64,000 nucleotides of DNA, taken from assembly GCF_003576375.1 (NCBI RefSeq), contig NZ_QWGE01000001.1:124001-188000 (forward strand). Direction: 5' to 3'. Below are positions 52,501 to 59,339 of this stretch, one piece after another. The position numbers and the translations under genes are program-made. The notes beneath the pieces are model-generated. The model worked only from the letters and a program-made list of their open reading frames with translations. It made no database searches and was not told where the DNA came from. Each line of letters starts with the position of its first letter. The first letter of the stretch is position 1. Origin of the DNA: Pontibacter oryzae. GTDB lineage: Bacteria; Bacteroidota; Bacteroidia; Cytophagales; Hymenobacteraceae.

Positions 52501-52512
52501 GGACAATTGTCC
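52501..52512. promoter_or_regulatory. 12-bp palindrome, candidate Crp/Fnr operator
   Basis: GGACAATTGTCC is a perfect palindrome. Its centre lies 30.5 bases before a TAnnTTTG element (TACCTTTG, 52537-52544), close to the -41.5 position of class II activators, just upstream of the Crp/Fnr gene at 52549. It shares the GAC-N4-GTC core of the sites at 56301 and 57175, so autoregulation by a Crp/Fnr protein is likely. Confidence 0.55.
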
Positions 52513-52536
52513 TTTCAGGCACGCAAAGAACTGTCT

Positions 52537-52544
52537 TACCTTTG
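52537..52544 (+). promoter_or_regulatory. Putative -7 promoter element (TAnnTTTG) of the Crp/Fnr gene
   Basis: TACCTTTG matches the consensus. It ends only 4 bases before the ATG at 52549, which would place the transcription start at about the first codon (leaderless). Confidence 0.5.
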
Positions 52545-52548
52545 TGGC

Positions 52549-53226
52549 ATGCAAGATTATCTTTTCTCTGACTACAGGGCTAGGTTAGTTACCTACATCG
52601 CCAACCATCAGGAACAACTGCAACAGCAGTATATGCTGCAACTGGCAGAGGCCGGGCAGCAGCATGTATTGTTACACCAGGATGCCCGCACCCAACAAGT
52701 ATACCTTGTTGCCTCTGGGTTGGTAAAAGTAACCCGCACCACATCATCGGGGCAGGCTTTTACGCTTGGCGTGTTTGACAGGGGCCAACCCTTAGGCGAG
52801 TTGGAAGTAATGATGGGCATCCCGAATTTCTGCACTGTACAGGCACTCACGCACTGCACGCTTTATTGTATACCTGCAAAGGCTTTCTTGCAGATGCTGG
52901 CACAGGAACCTGCATTTAACATCCTTATGCATCAGGCCACCGCATCCATGCTGCTTAATACAACACACAAGGCCTCCATACTTGGTACTAACCGCTTGCT
53001 TTACACTTTGCTTATTGTGCTGCGCGAGTTATCCATGCTAAACGAACTAAAGCTATCAAAAAGCCTGCTTGCCGAGTTTCTGGGCACTTCTGTTCGTAAC
53101 CTGAACCGCCTGCTGGCCCAGCTCGAAGCCGAAAAAATCCTGCAGCTACGTAATGCATCCATTGGGCAAATAAACTTGCCTCTTCTAATTAAACGCATCC
53201 AGATTTATGAAACCACTATACACTAA
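52549..53226 (+). CDS. Crp/Fnr family transcriptional regulator
   Basis: A 225-residue regulator, started at ATG 52549 (the frame opens at TTG 52507, inside a palindrome, which is unlikely to be coding). The N-terminal cNMP-like barrel spans about 15-125 (VLLHQDARTQQVYLVASGLVK, and GQPLGELEVM), then a dimer helix, and a helix-turn-helix at about 165-205 (LLAEFLGTSVRNLNRLLAQLE). No FNR-type cysteine cluster is seen. It overlaps the CAT-like gene by 20 bases, so the two are translationally linked. Confidence 0.9.
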   Translation: MQDYLFSDYRARLVTYIANHQEQLQQQYMLQLAEAGQQHVLLHQDARTQQVYLVASGLVKVTRTTSSGQAFTLGVFDRGQPLGELEVMMGIPNFCTVQALTHCTLYCIPAKAFLQMLAQEPAFNILMHQATASMLLNTTHKASILGTNRLLYTLLIVLRELSMLNELKLSKSLLAEFLGTSVRNLNRLLAQLEAEKILQLRNASIGQINLPLLIKRIQIYETTIH

Positions 53227-53866
53227 GCAGCCATTCCCGGTAGAGGGCTGGGAACGGGAAGAGCATTTCCATTTTTTCAGGAACTTCACACAACCGTTTT
53301 TTAACATAAGCACCGAAATCGATATTACTGCACTTTACAAGTATTGCAAGCGCGAGAAGCTGTCGGTTTTTCTGGCCTACCTGCATACGACCACAGCCGC
53401 GGCACGAGCCACCGAAAACTTCCTGCTCCGCCTGGATGGGGAAGGAATTTCGAAGTATGATGCCGTAGACATTTCGAGCACTATACTTAAACCGAATAAT
53501 ACGATCTCTTTCGTGCACCTGCCCCACCACCCGGATTTGCATACTTTCTGCGCCAGCGCCGCCGAGGTGATTACCAAGGCCAAAGCGAACCCAAAACTGC
53601 TGTACGGCTATAACGGTCCGGATCTTTTACACAGTACCACCTTGCCCTGGTTTAAACTTAACAGCATGGAGCACGCCTATACCGTAAATCCGCAAGACTC
53701 AGTGCCGAAATTAGCTTTTGGCAAAATTGAGAAGCATCAGCATAAGGTAATGCTTCCCATTAACATTAGCCTTCACCATGCCCTGGCCGATGGCTACCAC
53801 GTGCACCTGTTCCTCGAAAACTATAAGGCCCTGCTAAATGAGTTGCCGAAAGAGCATCTTAACTAA
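53207..53866 (+). CDS. CatA-like (chloramphenicol acetyltransferase fold) acyltransferase
   Basis: A 219-residue protein of the CAT family. It has the N-terminal H-F-x-F-F pattern, the central Y-N-G/G-P-D-L region and the catalytic motif HHALADG (about 190-196; HHxxxDG), with the His in the active site. True CAT enzymes acetylate chloramphenicol; Bacteroidota relatives of this size are mostly uncharacterised acetyltransferases, so resistance should not be assumed. It starts inside the end of the Crp/Fnr gene, which suggests the regulator controls it. Confidence 0.87.
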   Translation: MKPLYTKQPFPVEGWEREEHFHFFRNFTQPFFNISTEIDITALYKYCKREKLSVFLAYLHTTTAAARATENFLLRLDGEGISKYDAVDISSTILKPNNTISFVHLPHHPDLHTFCASAAEVITKAKANPKLLYGYNGPDLLHSTTLPWFKLNSMEHAYTVNPQDSVPKLAFGKIEKHQHKVMLPINISLHHALADGYHVHLFLENYKALLNELPKEHLN

Positions 53867-55625: not shown

Positions 55626-56273
55626 ATGGACTATACCACGCAGGCAAATATACAGCAGCTTTTCCCCCAGTTCGAGGAACCACTGCTGCAGGAACTTATT
55701 CAGGAGAGCACGATTAGGGGCTTTAACGAGGGAGAGCAAATTATCCGGACTGGACAATACATGCGTTCTTCCCTCCTGTTATTAAGCGGGCTCATGAAGA
55801 TTTACCGCGAAGACGAGGAAGGCAATGAGTTTATGATGTATTACCTGGAGCCCGGCAATGCCTGCGCCATGTCTATGATGTGCACCGCCCGCAATGAGAA
55901 AAGCCAAGTTATGGCCAAAGCTGTGCAGGCCGCAGAAGCCATACTTGTGCCACAGCACCTCACCGAGCAATGGCTTGGCAAATATAAAAGCTGGCACAAC
56001 TTCGTGATTGGGTCTTACCGCCAGCGCTTCGAGGAGCTGCTGCTTACATTGGATAGCATTGCCTTTAAAGCCATGGATGAGCGGCTGGTGTTTTACCTGC
56101 GTCGCCACCTCCAGAATCAAGGCTCGGAAGTGCGCCTTTCGCACCAGCAAATCGCTGATGACTTAAACAGCTCCCGAGAAGTTATCTCGCGCCTGCTTAA
56201 AAAACTGGAGCAGCGCCAGGCCCTTACCTTACACCGCAGCCACCTCGAGATCCTGAACCTGGATGCACTGTAA
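55626..56273 (+). CDS. Crp/Fnr family regulator with two sensor-domain cysteines (sulfur island)
   Basis: A 215-residue regulator. The cNMP-like barrel covers about 15-125, with Cys80 and Cys86 in the GNACAMSMMC segment; there is no FNR N-terminal cysteine cluster. The helix-turn-helix is at about 168-195 (LSHQQIADDLNSSREVISRLLKKLEQ), with S-R-E-x-x-S-R as recognition helix. Downstream are a TauE/SafE exporter and a persulfide dioxygenase-rhodanese gene, each with a GTGAC-N4-GTCAC palindrome in the class II position, so those genes are the probable targets. The paired cysteines could sense persulfide or redox, which is inference. Confidence 0.9.
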   Translation: MDYTTQANIQQLFPQFEEPLLQELIQESTIRGFNEGEQIIRTGQYMRSSLLLLSGLMKIYREDEEGNEFMMYYLEPGNACAMSMMCTARNEKSQVMAKAVQAAEAILVPQHLTEQWLGKYKSWHNFVIGSYRQRFEELLLTLDSIAFKAMDERLVFYLRRHLQNQGSEVRLSHQQIADDLNSSREVISRLLKKLEQRQALTLHRSHLEILNLDAL

Positions 56274-56300
56274 TTCCCTCGGAAAACCATACTTGCTTGT

Positions 56301-56314
56301 GTGACTGATGTCAC
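56301..56314. promoter_or_regulatory. Palindromic Crp/Fnr-type operator GTGAC-N4-GTCAC
   Basis: GTGAC-TGAT-GTCAC, perfect. The centre is 29.5 bases before TACTTTTG (56337-56344). It probably activates the TauE/SafE gene. Confidence 0.8.
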
Positions 56315-56336
56315 TTACATCGCGCAGCAGAAGCCA

Positions 56337-56344
56337 TACTTTTG
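56337..56344 (+). promoter_or_regulatory. Putative -7 promoter element (TAnnTTTG) of the TauE/SafE gene
   Basis: TACTTTTG matches the consensus. It lies 21 bases before the ATG at 56366 and 22 bases after the palindrome. Confidence 0.65.
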
Positions 56345-56365
56345 CATCGGATTAAACAAACAACT

Positions 56366-57166
56366 ATGGAAATACTTGGATACCTGGCTGCCATACTCAT
56401 CGGGTTATCACTCGGCTTAACGGGTAGCGGCGGCTCTATACTTACCGTGCCTATTCTAGTGTACCTGATGCGTTTCAGCCCGGTCATCTCCACGGCATAC
56501 TCACTTTTTGTGGTAGGGCTTACCAGCATGGTGGGAAGCTTTAAGTTTTACCGAAAGGGGCTTGTAAACTTTAAAACTGCCTTCGTTTTTGGAGCACCAT
56601 CCCTGCTGGCTGTGCTTCTTACCCGTCGCTTCGTGGTGCCTGCCATCCCGGAGCATATCATCACGCTGTTTGGGTTGCATATTACCAAAGGCATCCTTTT
56701 GATGGTAATTTTTGCGATTTTGATGGTGTTTGCCTCCTTCAGCATGATTCGCAAAAGTAAGTACAGCCCTGCACAAGAAGATAACGGCTCCCAGGACATT
56801 AAATACATTCCTGTGCTGCTTCAAGGCGTTGCGGTAGGGTTTGTTTCCGGCTTAGTGGGTGCTGGCGGCGGTTTCCTTATTATTCCGGCACTGGTACTAT
56901 TTACCGGCCTGGATATGAAAATGGCAGTAGGCACATCGCTTTTCATAATTGCGGCAAACTCCCTGCTGGGCTTCGTAGGCGACATTTTCACTTACGATAT
57001 CAATTGGGGATTCTTAATCACCTTTTCTGCCTTATCAGTTTTCGGTATCTTTATCGGCTCAGCCCTCTCTACCCGCATTCAGGGGGAAAAGCTTAAAACC
57101 GGTTTCGGCTGGTTTGTGCTGGCTATGGGTGTTTACATACTTATCAGGGAAATATTTCTGCAGTAA
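56366..57166 (+). CDS. Sulfite/organosulfur exporter, TauE/SafE (DUF81) family
   Basis: A 266-residue inner-membrane protein, started at ATG 56366 (the frame opens at a TTG within the promoter). About eight helices are present, with the duplicated TauE glycine motifs GLSLGLTGSGGSILTVP (about 12-28) and GFVSGLVGAGGGFLIIPAL (about 154-172). Family members export sulfite, sulfoacetate or thiosulfate-type anions. Between the regulator and the persulfide dioxygenase it is likely to remove sulfite made by that enzyme. Confidence 0.92.
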   Translation: MEILGYLAAILIGLSLGLTGSGGSILTVPILVYLMRFSPVISTAYSLFVVGLTSMVGSFKFYRKGLVNFKTAFVFGAPSLLAVLLTRRFVVPAIPEHIITLFGLHITKGILLMVIFAILMVFASFSMIRKSKYSPAQEDNGSQDIKYIPVLLQGVAVGFVSGLVGAGGGFLIIPALVLFTGLDMKMAVGTSLFIIAANSLLGFVGDIFTYDINWGFLITFSALSVFGIFIGSALSTRIQGEKLKTGFGWFVLAMGVYILIREIFLQ

Positions 57167-57174
57167 AACCACCG

Positions 57175-57188
57175 GTGACAAAGGTCAC
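57175..57188. promoter_or_regulatory. Palindromic Crp/Fnr-type operator GTGAC-N4-GTCAC
   Basis: GTGAC-AAAG-GTCAC, perfect. Its centre is 29.5 bases before GATATTTG (57211-57218), the same distance as at 56301. It probably activates the dioxygenase gene. Confidence 0.8.
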
Positions 57189-57210
57189 TGTAGCATGTGG
57201 TATTTATGCT

Positions 57211-57218
57211 GATATTTG
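57211..57218 (+). promoter_or_regulatory. Near-consensus -7 element of the dioxygenase-rhodanese gene
   Basis: GATATTTG differs from TAnnTTTG only at the first base. It lies 27 bases before the ATG at 57246, and its distance from the palindrome is the same as at the TauE/SafE promoter. The weak first base fits an activator-dependent promoter. Confidence 0.6.
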
Positions 57219-57245
57219 TACTGTTGAACAAAATTACGCAAGACT

Positions 57246-58655
57246 ATGATAGTTGAACAAATCTATACAGGTTGCCTGGCACAGGGCGCCTACTACATCG
57301 AAAGCAAAGGCGAAGCTGTTATCATCGATCCGCTACGCGAGATAAAGCCATACTTAGAGAAAGCTAAGCGCAGTGATGCTAAGATAAAATATGTGCTGGA
57401 GACGCATTTTCACGCTGATTTTGTATCCGGGCACTTGGATTTGGCAAAGGCCACCGGCGCCGAAATCGTTTTTGGCCCTAACGCGAAGCCTTCTTTTGAT
57501 GCGCATATAGCCACAGATGGCCAGGAACTGCATGTAGGCGATGTCACGATAAAAGTGTTGCATACTCCAGGCCATACCATGGAGTCCACTACGTATCTTT
57601 TAAAAGATGAGCAAGGGAAAGACTACGCCATATTTACCGGCGATACACTGTTTATTGGTGACGTTGGCCGCCCGGACCTGGCTGTAAAGTCCGACATGAC
57701 AGAAGAGCAACTTGCCGAGCACCTATTCGAATCCCTACGAAACAAAATCATGACGCTTGCTGATGATATCATTGTATATCCGGCACACGGCGCAGGCTCG
57801 GCTTGCGGCAAAAACATGAGCAAGGAAACCAGCGATACGCTAGGCAACCAGAAGCAAAACAACTACGCGCTTCGGGCTGATATGTCGAAAGAAGAGTTTG
57901 TGAAGGAAGTGACAGAGGGCTTGCTGCCACCGCCAGGCTATTTCCCGTTTAATGTGCAGATGAACAAGCAAGGCTACGAAAGCATAGACAACGTGATGCG
58001 CCAGGGACTGCAGGCACTTTCGCCGGACGCTTTTGAGGCAGCCGCCAACGAAACCACTGTTCTGATGCTTGATACCCGCAAACCCCAGGATTTTGCCAGT
58101 AGCTTTATTCCTAATGCGATCAACATAGGCATTGATGGAGGTTTCGCCCCATGGGTGGGCGCTCTTATCCCTGATATTAAACAACCAATTTTGTTCATAG
58201 CTGATGAAGGACGCGAGGAGGAAGTGGTAACGCGTTTGGCGCGTGTAGGATTTGATAACGCTATTGGTTACCTGAAAGGTGGCATCAGTGCCTGGAAAGC
58301 TGCAGGTAAGGAGATAGACACAATTACTTCTATTTCGGCTACAGAATTATCCCAGCGCTTTAAGCAAGATGAGGACATCACGATCGTGGATGTGCGCAAG
58401 CCAGGTGAATTTCAGGCCGAACACCTGGAAACAGCCTCTTCCAAGCCACTTGACTTCCTGAATGAGCACTTGGCAGAGCTGCCGAAGGATAAGACCATGC
58501 ATATCCACTGCGCAGGTGGGTATCGCTCCATGATCGCCGCTTCAATCCTCAAGGCCCGTGGCTTCGATAACGTAGTAGATGTGCAGGGTGGCTACAAGGC
58601 TATCTCAGAAACAGACATGCCACGCACTAATTTTGTTTGCCCAAGCACACTTTAG
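57246..58655 (+). CDS. Persulfide dioxygenase-like metallo-beta-lactamase fused to two rhodanese domains
   Basis: A 469-residue cytoplasmic protein. The metallo-beta-lactamase domain (1-240) has THFHADFVSGH (His54, His56, Asp58, His63), His110 in HTPGH, Asp133 in FTGDT and His181, the iron-binding set of ETHE1-like persulfide dioxygenases. Rhodanese 1 (about 265-360) has lost the active-site Cys: the loop reads FIADEGREEE. Rhodanese 2 (about 365-460) keeps Cys422 in HCAGGYRS. It should oxidise glutathione or other low-molecular persulfide to sulfite and shuttle sulfur with thiosulfate. Its own promoter has the palindrome at 57175. Confidence 0.93.
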   Translation: MIVEQIYTGCLAQGAYYIESKGEAVIIDPLREIKPYLEKAKRSDAKIKYVLETHFHADFVSGHLDLAKATGAEIVFGPNAKPSFDAHIATDGQELHVGDVTIKVLHTPGHTMESTTYLLKDEQGKDYAIFTGDTLFIGDVGRPDLAVKSDMTEEQLAEHLFESLRNKIMTLADDIIVYPAHGAGSACGKNMSKETSDTLGNQKQNNYALRADMSKEEFVKEVTEGLLPPPGYFPFNVQMNKQGYESIDNVMRQGLQALSPDAFEAAANETTVLMLDTRKPQDFASSFIPNAINIGIDGGFAPWVGALIPDIKQPILFIADEGREEEVVTRLARVGFDNAIGYLKGGISAWKAAGKEIDTITSISATELSQRFKQDEDITIVDVRKPGEFQAEHLETASSKPLDFLNEHLAELPKDKTMHIHCAGGYRSMIAASILKARGFDNVVDVQGGYKAISETDMPRTNFVCPSTL

Positions 58656-58736: not shown

Positions 58737-59339
58737 TTAGCCTTTCTTTCTGGAATCGCTTTGCTCCTGTACTTTATCCAGGGTTTTACGCTTATCTGTT
58801 TTGAGTTGCTTAAAGTAGCTAGGCGTTAAACCCGTTACTTTTTTAAACTGGTTAGATAGGTGCGCCACGCTACTATAACCCAGTTCAAAAGCTATTTCTT
58901 TCAGGCTGAGCTCATTATAAACAAGCAGTTCCTTTACACGCTCAATGCGCTGCAAAATCAGATACTTCTCAATAGTAATACCCTCTAACGACGAGAATAG
59001 TGAGCTAATGTGCTGGTAATCCATTCCTAATTTTTGCGCGATATACTCTGAGGTATTTATGCTAAGCTCCTGCTCACCTTTATGATGCACCAGGTCGATG
59101 ATTGTAAGCTTAACTTTCTCGATGAGCTGCGTTTTACGGTCGTCCAGCAGCTCAAAACCATTTAATTGTAACGCTTCCCTTATCTGCTCCAGGTCAATTT
59201 GTGTATTTACGGAGGCTATTTCTACCTCTCCCAAGCTATTGTTGAGCACTGTATAGCCTAGTTTCTGTAATTCTTCCGCTACAACCTTCTTGCAACGGTC
59301 GCATACCATGTTTTTTATATTCAGTTTCAGCGTGGTCAT
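58737..59339 (-). CDS. HMA-like domain fused to AraC-type DNA-binding domain
   Basis: A 200-residue regulator. The first 70 residues look like a heavy-metal-associated ferredoxin-like fold with MVCDRC (Cys13, Cys16, the CxxC position). The AraC/XylS double helix-turn-helix covers about 95-185 (ISSLFSSLEGITIEKYLILQRIERVKELL, then LSLKEIAFELGYSSVAHLSNQFKKVTGLTPSYFK). The C-terminus is charged. The CxxC pair could bind copper or another soft metal, or sense persulfide, and drive the AraC module; no partner gene is obvious. It is convergent with the persulfide gene and is about 170 bases from the next gene. Confidence 0.88.
   Translation of the reverse strand: MTTLKLNIKNMVCDRCKKVVAEELQKLGYTVLNNSLGEVEIASVNTQIDLEQIREALQLNGFELLDDRKTQLIEKVKLTIIDLVHHKGEQELSINTSEYIAQKLGMDYQHISSLFSSLEGITIEKYLILQRIERVKELLVYNELSLKEIAFELGYSSVAHLSNQFKKVTGLTPSYFKQLKTDKRKTLDKVQEQSDSRKKG

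Follow-up and report, generated by a model that had tools for sequence, protein, structure and literature searches.

The window analysed here is a 64,000-nucleotide stretch of the Pontibacter oryzae genome (contig NZ_QWGE01000001.1). It contains a sulfur block in which sequence and Pfam matches identify a Crp/Fnr regulator, a TauE/SafE exporter and a metallo-beta-lactamase (MBL) protein with two rhodanese stretches (Table 1). In the MBL protein, PF00753 spans residues 14–148 and is followed by two PF00581 stretches, and near full-length matches are 3tp9 (E 2.5e-73) and 3r2u (E 1.7e-56); by domain order it is an MBL-rhodanese persulfide dioxygenase-like protein, of the type called CstB-like. 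The exporter gene more likely starts at ATG 56366 than at the listed TTG 56342, because the first codons of the listed open reading frame (ORF) overlap a promoter box. Two palindromes, GTGAC-N4-GTCAC, lie ahead of the exporter and dioxygenase genes, where a sequence-only reading of the window had placed them. Control of sulfur detoxification genes by the regulator through these palindromes is well supported by genome comparison, and its mode is most likely class II activation.

The window has two exact palindromes, against 0.03 expected from shuffled windows. At both of them TTTG begins 26 bases past GTCAC (56341 and 57215; +26 below), and the palindrome centre is exactly 29.5 bases before the first base of an 8-base box, as had been claimed; the first box, TACTTTTG, is a full TAnnTTTG match and the second, GATATTTG, a form also found in related loci, is one base off. 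Palindromes with up to two mismatches are at chance level in the window (18 vs 15.2 expected), so the signal consists of the exact sites and their position. The whole genome (4.23 Mb) has three exact palindromes and the backwards control pattern likewise occurs three times; thus palindrome number alone is not evidence, and position is. Counting alone was rejected as uninformative, exact sites and backwards-control hits being similarly frequent both in the genome and in the family. All three exact genomic sites have sulfur genes downstream. The third has a TauE gene on one side and a rhodanese-YeeE block on the other, and its neighbourhood includes another copy of the regulator (71% identity). 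In this second locus, a site with one mismatch (GTGACAAACATCAC, N26, TTTG) precedes a second dioxygenase-rhodanese gene, and a degenerate site (GTAACAACTGTCAC, N26, CTTG) precedes the second TauE gene, which brings the site-bearing promoters of the genome to five. The sequence-only reading had described a local sulfur regulon; the sulfur regulon stands, and "local" is too narrow, because of the second locus and of homologous systems in at least two phyla.

Table 1. Features of the sulfur block, with window coordinates except in the last row.
Feature	Position	Strand	Evidence
Crp/Fnr family regulator, 215 amino acids (aa); cyclic-nucleotide-like barrel and Crp-type helix-turn-helix	55626..56273	+	PF00027, PF13545 and PF00325 above cut-off; Crp/Fnr fold
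Codons Cys80 to Cys86, flanking short helix 81–85	55863..55883	+	Sequence; AlphaFold2 model
Recognition helix region SREVISRLLKKLEQ	56172..56213	+	Alignment with E. coli CRP (SRETVGR) and FNR
Palindrome GTGAC-TGAT-GTCAC in the TauE promoter, predicted to bind the activator	56301..56314	+	Sequence; conserved at fixed spacing
Promoter box TACTTTTG, full TAnnTTTG match, 22 bases past the palindrome	56337..56344	+	Sequence; base counts of 108 composite sites
TauE/SafE family exporter, 266 aa counted from ATG	56366..57166	+	PF01925, E 5e-45
Palindrome GTGAC-AAAG-GTCAC in the dioxygenase promoter, predicted to bind the activator	57175..57188	+	Sequence; conserved
Promoter box GATATTTG, one base off TAnnTTTG, spacing as in the first box	57211..57218	+	Sequence
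Persulfide dioxygenase-like MBL protein (469 aa) containing two rhodanese stretches	57246..58655	+	PF00753; two PF00581 stretches
Further copy of the system elsewhere in the genome, with genes for a dioxygenase-rhodanese protein, the regulator paralogue (71%), TauE, a rhodanese and two YeeE-type proteins	L067 4932–9921 (G000:C5)		

Site and spacing are conserved in related loci. An exact site downstream of the regulator gene is present in 25 of 31 regulator loci read with flanks of 1.5 kb, and TTTG is at +26 in 28 of 28 such sites. A single scan with a 16-sequence alignment gave 257 relatives, and the best 80 of these 257 were analysed as loci, so distant relatives are under-sampled; the top-ranking relatives that bear a name are for the most part Pontibacter species. 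Exact palindromes, 113 in all, are present in 58 of the 80 loci and are followed by TTTG at +26 in 106 cases; since two of them have TTTG on both sides, the exact composite sites amount to 108. When all 5-base arms with spacers of 0 to 12 were ranked, GTGAC with spacer 4 was the most widespread palindrome (58 of 80 loci, vs 25 for the next). In Flavobacterium-type loci the exact form is mostly absent, and GTGAT-N4-GTTAC and similar sequences are found at the same distance. Degenerate, non-exact palindromes have TTTG at +26 in 108 of 122 cases (L068–L123) and in 32 of 44 (23 loci of L124–L147, L135 left out), and at other offsets in a mean of 1.4 and 0.45 cases per offset. An exact or degenerate site with TTTG at +26 was found in 75 of the 80 loci. 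Conservation upstream of orthologues, which the sequence-only reading had named as its test, is thereby confirmed, and its judgement that chance was very unlikely is borne out; chance palindromes are rejected by the fixed spacing and the conservation.

The spacing also bears on the mode of control. The TAnnTTTG box of Flavobacterium psychrophilum is placed at −12 to −5 (PMC9723704), and a palindrome centred 29.5 bases before its first T would accordingly be centred at −41.5; the class II position near −41.5 in the sequence-only reading follows from that placement. In the 108 composites, base counts give A at −11 in 98% and G at −33 in 90%. A centre at −41.5 would correspond to class II activator geometry. 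A protein bound at the same site could instead act as a repressor, closing the promoter until reactive sulfur displaces it, as the site adjoins the −33 region and comparable genes are under repression by CstR and SqrR/BigR (PMC9774590, PMC8148161). Repression needs no single exact spacing, however, whereas a constant −41.5 centre is that of class II activators, and we consider a repressor quite improbable.

Presence of the regulator, scored at E up to 1e-20 in 150 genomes of the family, coincides with presence of the site. The regulator was found in 69 genomes and the exact composite site in 68, both together in 66, the regulator only in three (G001, G007, G023), the site only in two (G037, G060) and neither in 79; these genomes are related to one another, and the table does not represent 150 independent events. 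Summed over all genomes there are 182 sites, vs seven backwards-control hits in six genomes. Degenerate sites followed by TTTG at +26 occur in each of the three regulator-only genomes. For the two site-only genomes (G037, L213 and L222; G060, L212), the best regulator matches are short, contain stops and lie on the contig with the site; from their sequence they are regulator remnants. A dioxygenase homologue is present in 148 of the 150 genomes, and since both exceptions are regulator-positive, all 81 genomes scored as regulator-lacking have it. In 18 regulator-less genomes of one genus, the dioxygenase start regions (one gene each, 11,767 bases) contain no degenerate site.

The regulator would be suited to such sites. 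In alignment its recognition helix reads SREVISR, that of E. coli CRP SRETVGR and that of FNR TVETISR; the DNA-contacting residues of CRP are known, and the likeness to CRP fits half-sites of the CRP type, GTGA. Residues R184, E185, S188 and R189 are invariant in a set of 84 sequences, of which the 80 loci supplied 82 and this genome two. GTGA-N6-TCAC is the general CRP consensus as well, and this genome has other Crp/Fnr proteins, so a different, global CRP-like protein might bind the palindromes while the neighbouring regulator controls something else. This is highly improbable given that the composite sites track the regulator across the 150 related genomes, and that three of five tested genomes without regulator and site (G003, G014, G011) keep distant matches of 21–23% identity; since they have no sites, another Crp/Fnr protein does not bring them.

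Homologues outside the family extend the association of regulator and site. A plasmid search found 31 records, of which 19 were opened, 15 of them proteobacterial. The cysteine pair of the regulator (Cys80 and Cys86) occurs together with a GTGAC-N3-GTCAC-like 13-mer in 14 of the 15, and the fifteenth (L232, beside NnrS and NorQ genes) has neither, which again argues against a global CRP-like protein. Seven of the 14 13-mers are exact and the rest have a change or two; 12 lie no more than 50 bases from the regulator end, and in two Azospirillum plasmids the 13-mer is before DUF2892. The spacer is thus three bases in Proteobacteria (L199, L200, L203, L205, L208, L209 and others) vs four in Bacteroidota. 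Ten of the 14 pair-and-site loci have gene runs with an MBL-fold (dioxygenase-like) gene, accompanied within the stretch read by a DUF6691 gene in seven and a SulP-type gene in nine; one of the other four is an unannotated record. In Bacteroidota, the Spirosoma homologue (L202) has TauE-type (DUF81), beta-lactamase-type and YeeE genes beside it. The Fusobacterium homologue (L206) lacks cysteine at both positions and has no site, so the pair is not universal among the relatives found. When the cysteine columns were left out of the alignment used for a tree, the rows with cysteines fell on one side of a branch with support 99/97; as the comparison set consisted of six no-cysteine Crp/Fnr rows with long branches, this is a lead towards, not proof of, a single origin. 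The sulfur block with regulator is also carried by Pontibacter akesuensis plasmid Paks1 (L207), typed as mobilizable, which has five sites with TTTG at +26 in 22 kb.

The regulator belongs to the Crp/Fnr superfamily by PF00027 (33.0 bits, cut-off 27.5) and PF13545 (44.2 bits, cut-off 27), and the AlphaFold2 model confirms the fold (predicted local distance difference test score, pLDDT, 85.5). As had been noted from the letters, the barrel carries two cysteines and no FNR cluster: Cys80 and Cys86 are the only cysteines of the protein, so there is no FNR set for a [4Fe-4S] cluster, and both are present in all 84 sequences. In the model they flank a short helix, 81–85, at the position of the cyclic-nucleotide phosphate pocket. 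FNR-type iron-sulfur sensing was rejected from the two cysteines and the score for NF008365, 21.5 bits against 228. Cyclic AMP (cAMP) sensing was likewise rejected, as the CRP equivalog scores 47.3 bits against a cut-off of 266 and the IGELGLF segment of the CRP pocket is replaced.

The barrel could alternatively have a small molecule as its ligand, for example sulfite, thiosulfate or a nucleotide, with structural or metal-binding cysteines; TauE/SafE and YeeE proteins are annotated as movers of sulfur oxyanions, and the model puts the cysteines in the ligand pocket region. The aligned sequences (34) have, however, no invariant barrel histidine or further cysteine, the sole invariant histidine, His173, being in the helix-turn-helix domain. 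The glutamate with which CRP lines its phosphate pocket is not kept in the regulator either, and ligand binding of this kind is decidedly unlikely.

The genes behind the sites point to reactive sulfur. Of the 108 exact composites, 103 have a sulfur gene within the 300 bases that follow, encoding a rhodanese in 29 cases, a dioxygenase in 24 and 16, TauE in 23 and 9 and YeeE in 2; a matched sulfur gene is at that distance in 96 of 143 degenerate composites. Twenty further composite-site regions were hand-picked from the 150-genome scan, and the following genes were named mostly by eye: six encode dioxygenase-rhodanese proteins, five are small ORFs, three are thioredoxin-like, two YeeE, one TauE, one porin-like and one SoxB-like (its 284 bits fall short of the SoxB cut-off, 550), and once the regulator itself follows. 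A conserved protein of 117–123 aa is found behind a composite site with TTGTTTTG or TTGCTTTG box in L178, L179, L189 and L195; in P. akesuensis (L207 21053–21439) a metallophosphatase/5'-nucleotidase gene comes after it. Among the named loci, degenerate sites are ahead of genes for thioredoxin reductase, peroxiredoxin and a coenzyme A (CoA)-disulfide reductase-like protein with rhodanese domain, and also of methyltransferase, TolC, TetR-like and universal stress protein genes; this evidence is weaker, because a degenerate site can arise by chance. The CoA-disulfide reductase-like protein of L129 (3662–5362), with its C-terminal rhodanese domain, is similar to CoA-persulfide reductase 8a56.

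General thiol redox switches have been described in some other Crp/Fnr proteins. With the same regulator and sites, the cysteine pair could be such a switch, forming a disulfide under oxidative stress, and the sulfur genes would be part of a wider thiol response. In agreement with this, some degenerate sites are followed by genes for enzymes of general thiol or peroxide metabolism, namely thioredoxin reductase and peroxiredoxin. The 103 exact composites ahead of sulfur genes do not, nor do the ten plasmid loci with an MBL-fold gene, mostly with SulP or YeeE genes, and a general switch seems rather unlikely.

Conserved sites, spacing, promoter box, regulon content, cysteine pair and co-occurrence with the regulator are thus established by comparison, and the explanation that we regard as likely is a Crp/Fnr class II activator of sulfur detoxification genes acting through GTGAC-N4-GTCAC. 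The regulator itself would be the protein that binds the palindrome, as a dimer, and would activate transcription from the class II position (−41.5), beside TAnnTTTG, the box of the primary sigma factor in Bacteroidota. The predicted regulon exports and oxidises reactive sulfur by means of TauE/SafE, dioxygenase-rhodanese and single rhodanese proteins and sulfur transporters of the YeeE/DUF6691 kind; thioredoxin reductase, peroxiredoxin and CoA-disulfide reductase probably belong to it in some species. With less certainty we infer per- or polysulfide as the most probable signal, which may react with Cys80 and Cys86 where cAMP would sit; a di- or polysulfide bridge between them would switch DNA binding on.

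Several observations weigh against this explanation or parts of it. Model residues 81–90 are weak (mean pLDDT 58), the cysteines may serve another signal, and the −41.5 value comes from the promoter geometry of another genus, not Pontibacter. The composite site was not found in five of the 80 loci (L079, L131, L133, L142, L144), and a matched sulfur gene is missing within 300 bases of 5 of the 108 exact and 47 of the 143 degenerate composites. DoxX-like, thioredoxin-like and rhodanese genes that come after the second version of the system on the same contig (L067 10.4–13.0 kb) have no site in front. Outside the family, Persicobacter (L201) keeps the pair, but its 12.6 kb contain neither a site nor a gene for dioxygenase, TauE, rhodanese or YeeE; DUF2892 is the sole expected neighbour of the Thiothrix and two Azospirillum homologues; and in Spirosoma one cysteine aligns and the other is a residue out of line, and the first of two sites is followed by TTTC, not TTTG. 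A broader proposal, which we find moderately probable, is a separate class of Crp/Fnr-fold reactive-sulfur sensors across Bacteroidota, Alphaproteobacteria and Gammaproteobacteria, in which the cAMP pocket has been turned into a C-x5-C polysulfide activator switch and the half-sites have been kept with spacer N4 changed to N3.

Other genes surround the block. Convergent to the dioxygenase gene, on the minus strand at 58737–59339, a 200-aa protein with AraC-type helix-turn-helix and a weak CopZ-like N-terminus is encoded. Genes at 52507–53226 and 53207–53866 overlap by 20 bases and encode another Crp/Fnr protein, without cysteine at either pair position, and a protein of the chloramphenicol acetyltransferase family.

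If the explanation is true, the large Crp/Fnr family would gain a new type of input. Bacteroidota gain a candidate reactive-sulfur regulator with a defined predicted site, promoter geometry, regulon and two mutable residues, and toxic-sulfur sensing in these bacteria becomes directly testable. Among the open-access papers covered, no description of a Crp/Fnr reactive-sulfur regulator was found, most subscription journals and all preprints being outside the search. The Crp/Fnr genes of PMC8014003 are tied to denitrification, and the reactive-sulfur regulators reviewed in PMC9774590 and PMC8148161 (CstR, SqrR/BigR, FisR) were described in Gram-positive bacteria and Proteobacteria and are members of families other than Crp/Fnr.

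The closest sequence and fold match is 3dv8, an Eubacterium rectale Crp/Fnr protein entitled putative regulator, in which cysteines align to both Cys80 and Cys86. Its identity is 22%, with Z 17.0 and a root-mean-square deviation of 13.3 over 206 residues that probably reflects a different domain orientation. The fold matches are Crp/Fnr structures; HcpR and DNR types come up as fold hits at 13–22% identity. With E. coli CRP the regulator shares the fold, the helix-turn-helix and the R, E and R of the recognition helix, as well as GTGA half-sites and, by prediction, the class II position, and it differs in its two cysteines, a two-residue insert in the pocket segment and a sulfur regulon. FNR and the DNR/NnrR/HcpR types have the same fold, Porphyromonas gingivalis HcpR (9day) matching at 13–14% identity, but FNR has the four-cysteine cluster set that the regulator lacks, and the plasmid protein beside NnrS and NorQ genes (L232) is without pair and site. 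CprK and FLP are Crp/Fnr proteins described as redox-sensitive through cysteines, at other positions and with other regulons. CstR, SqrR/BigR and FisR control sulfide detoxification genes and sense with two or more cysteines (PMC9774590), as is predicted for the regulator. They belong, however, to the CsoR, ArsR and Fis/sigma-54 activator families, and CstR and SqrR are repressors, whereas Pfam finds in the regulator Crp/Fnr domains and one sub-threshold Sigma70_r4 match; its domains and its fold place it among the Crp/Fnr proteins, distinct from these three as the sequence-only reading had maintained.

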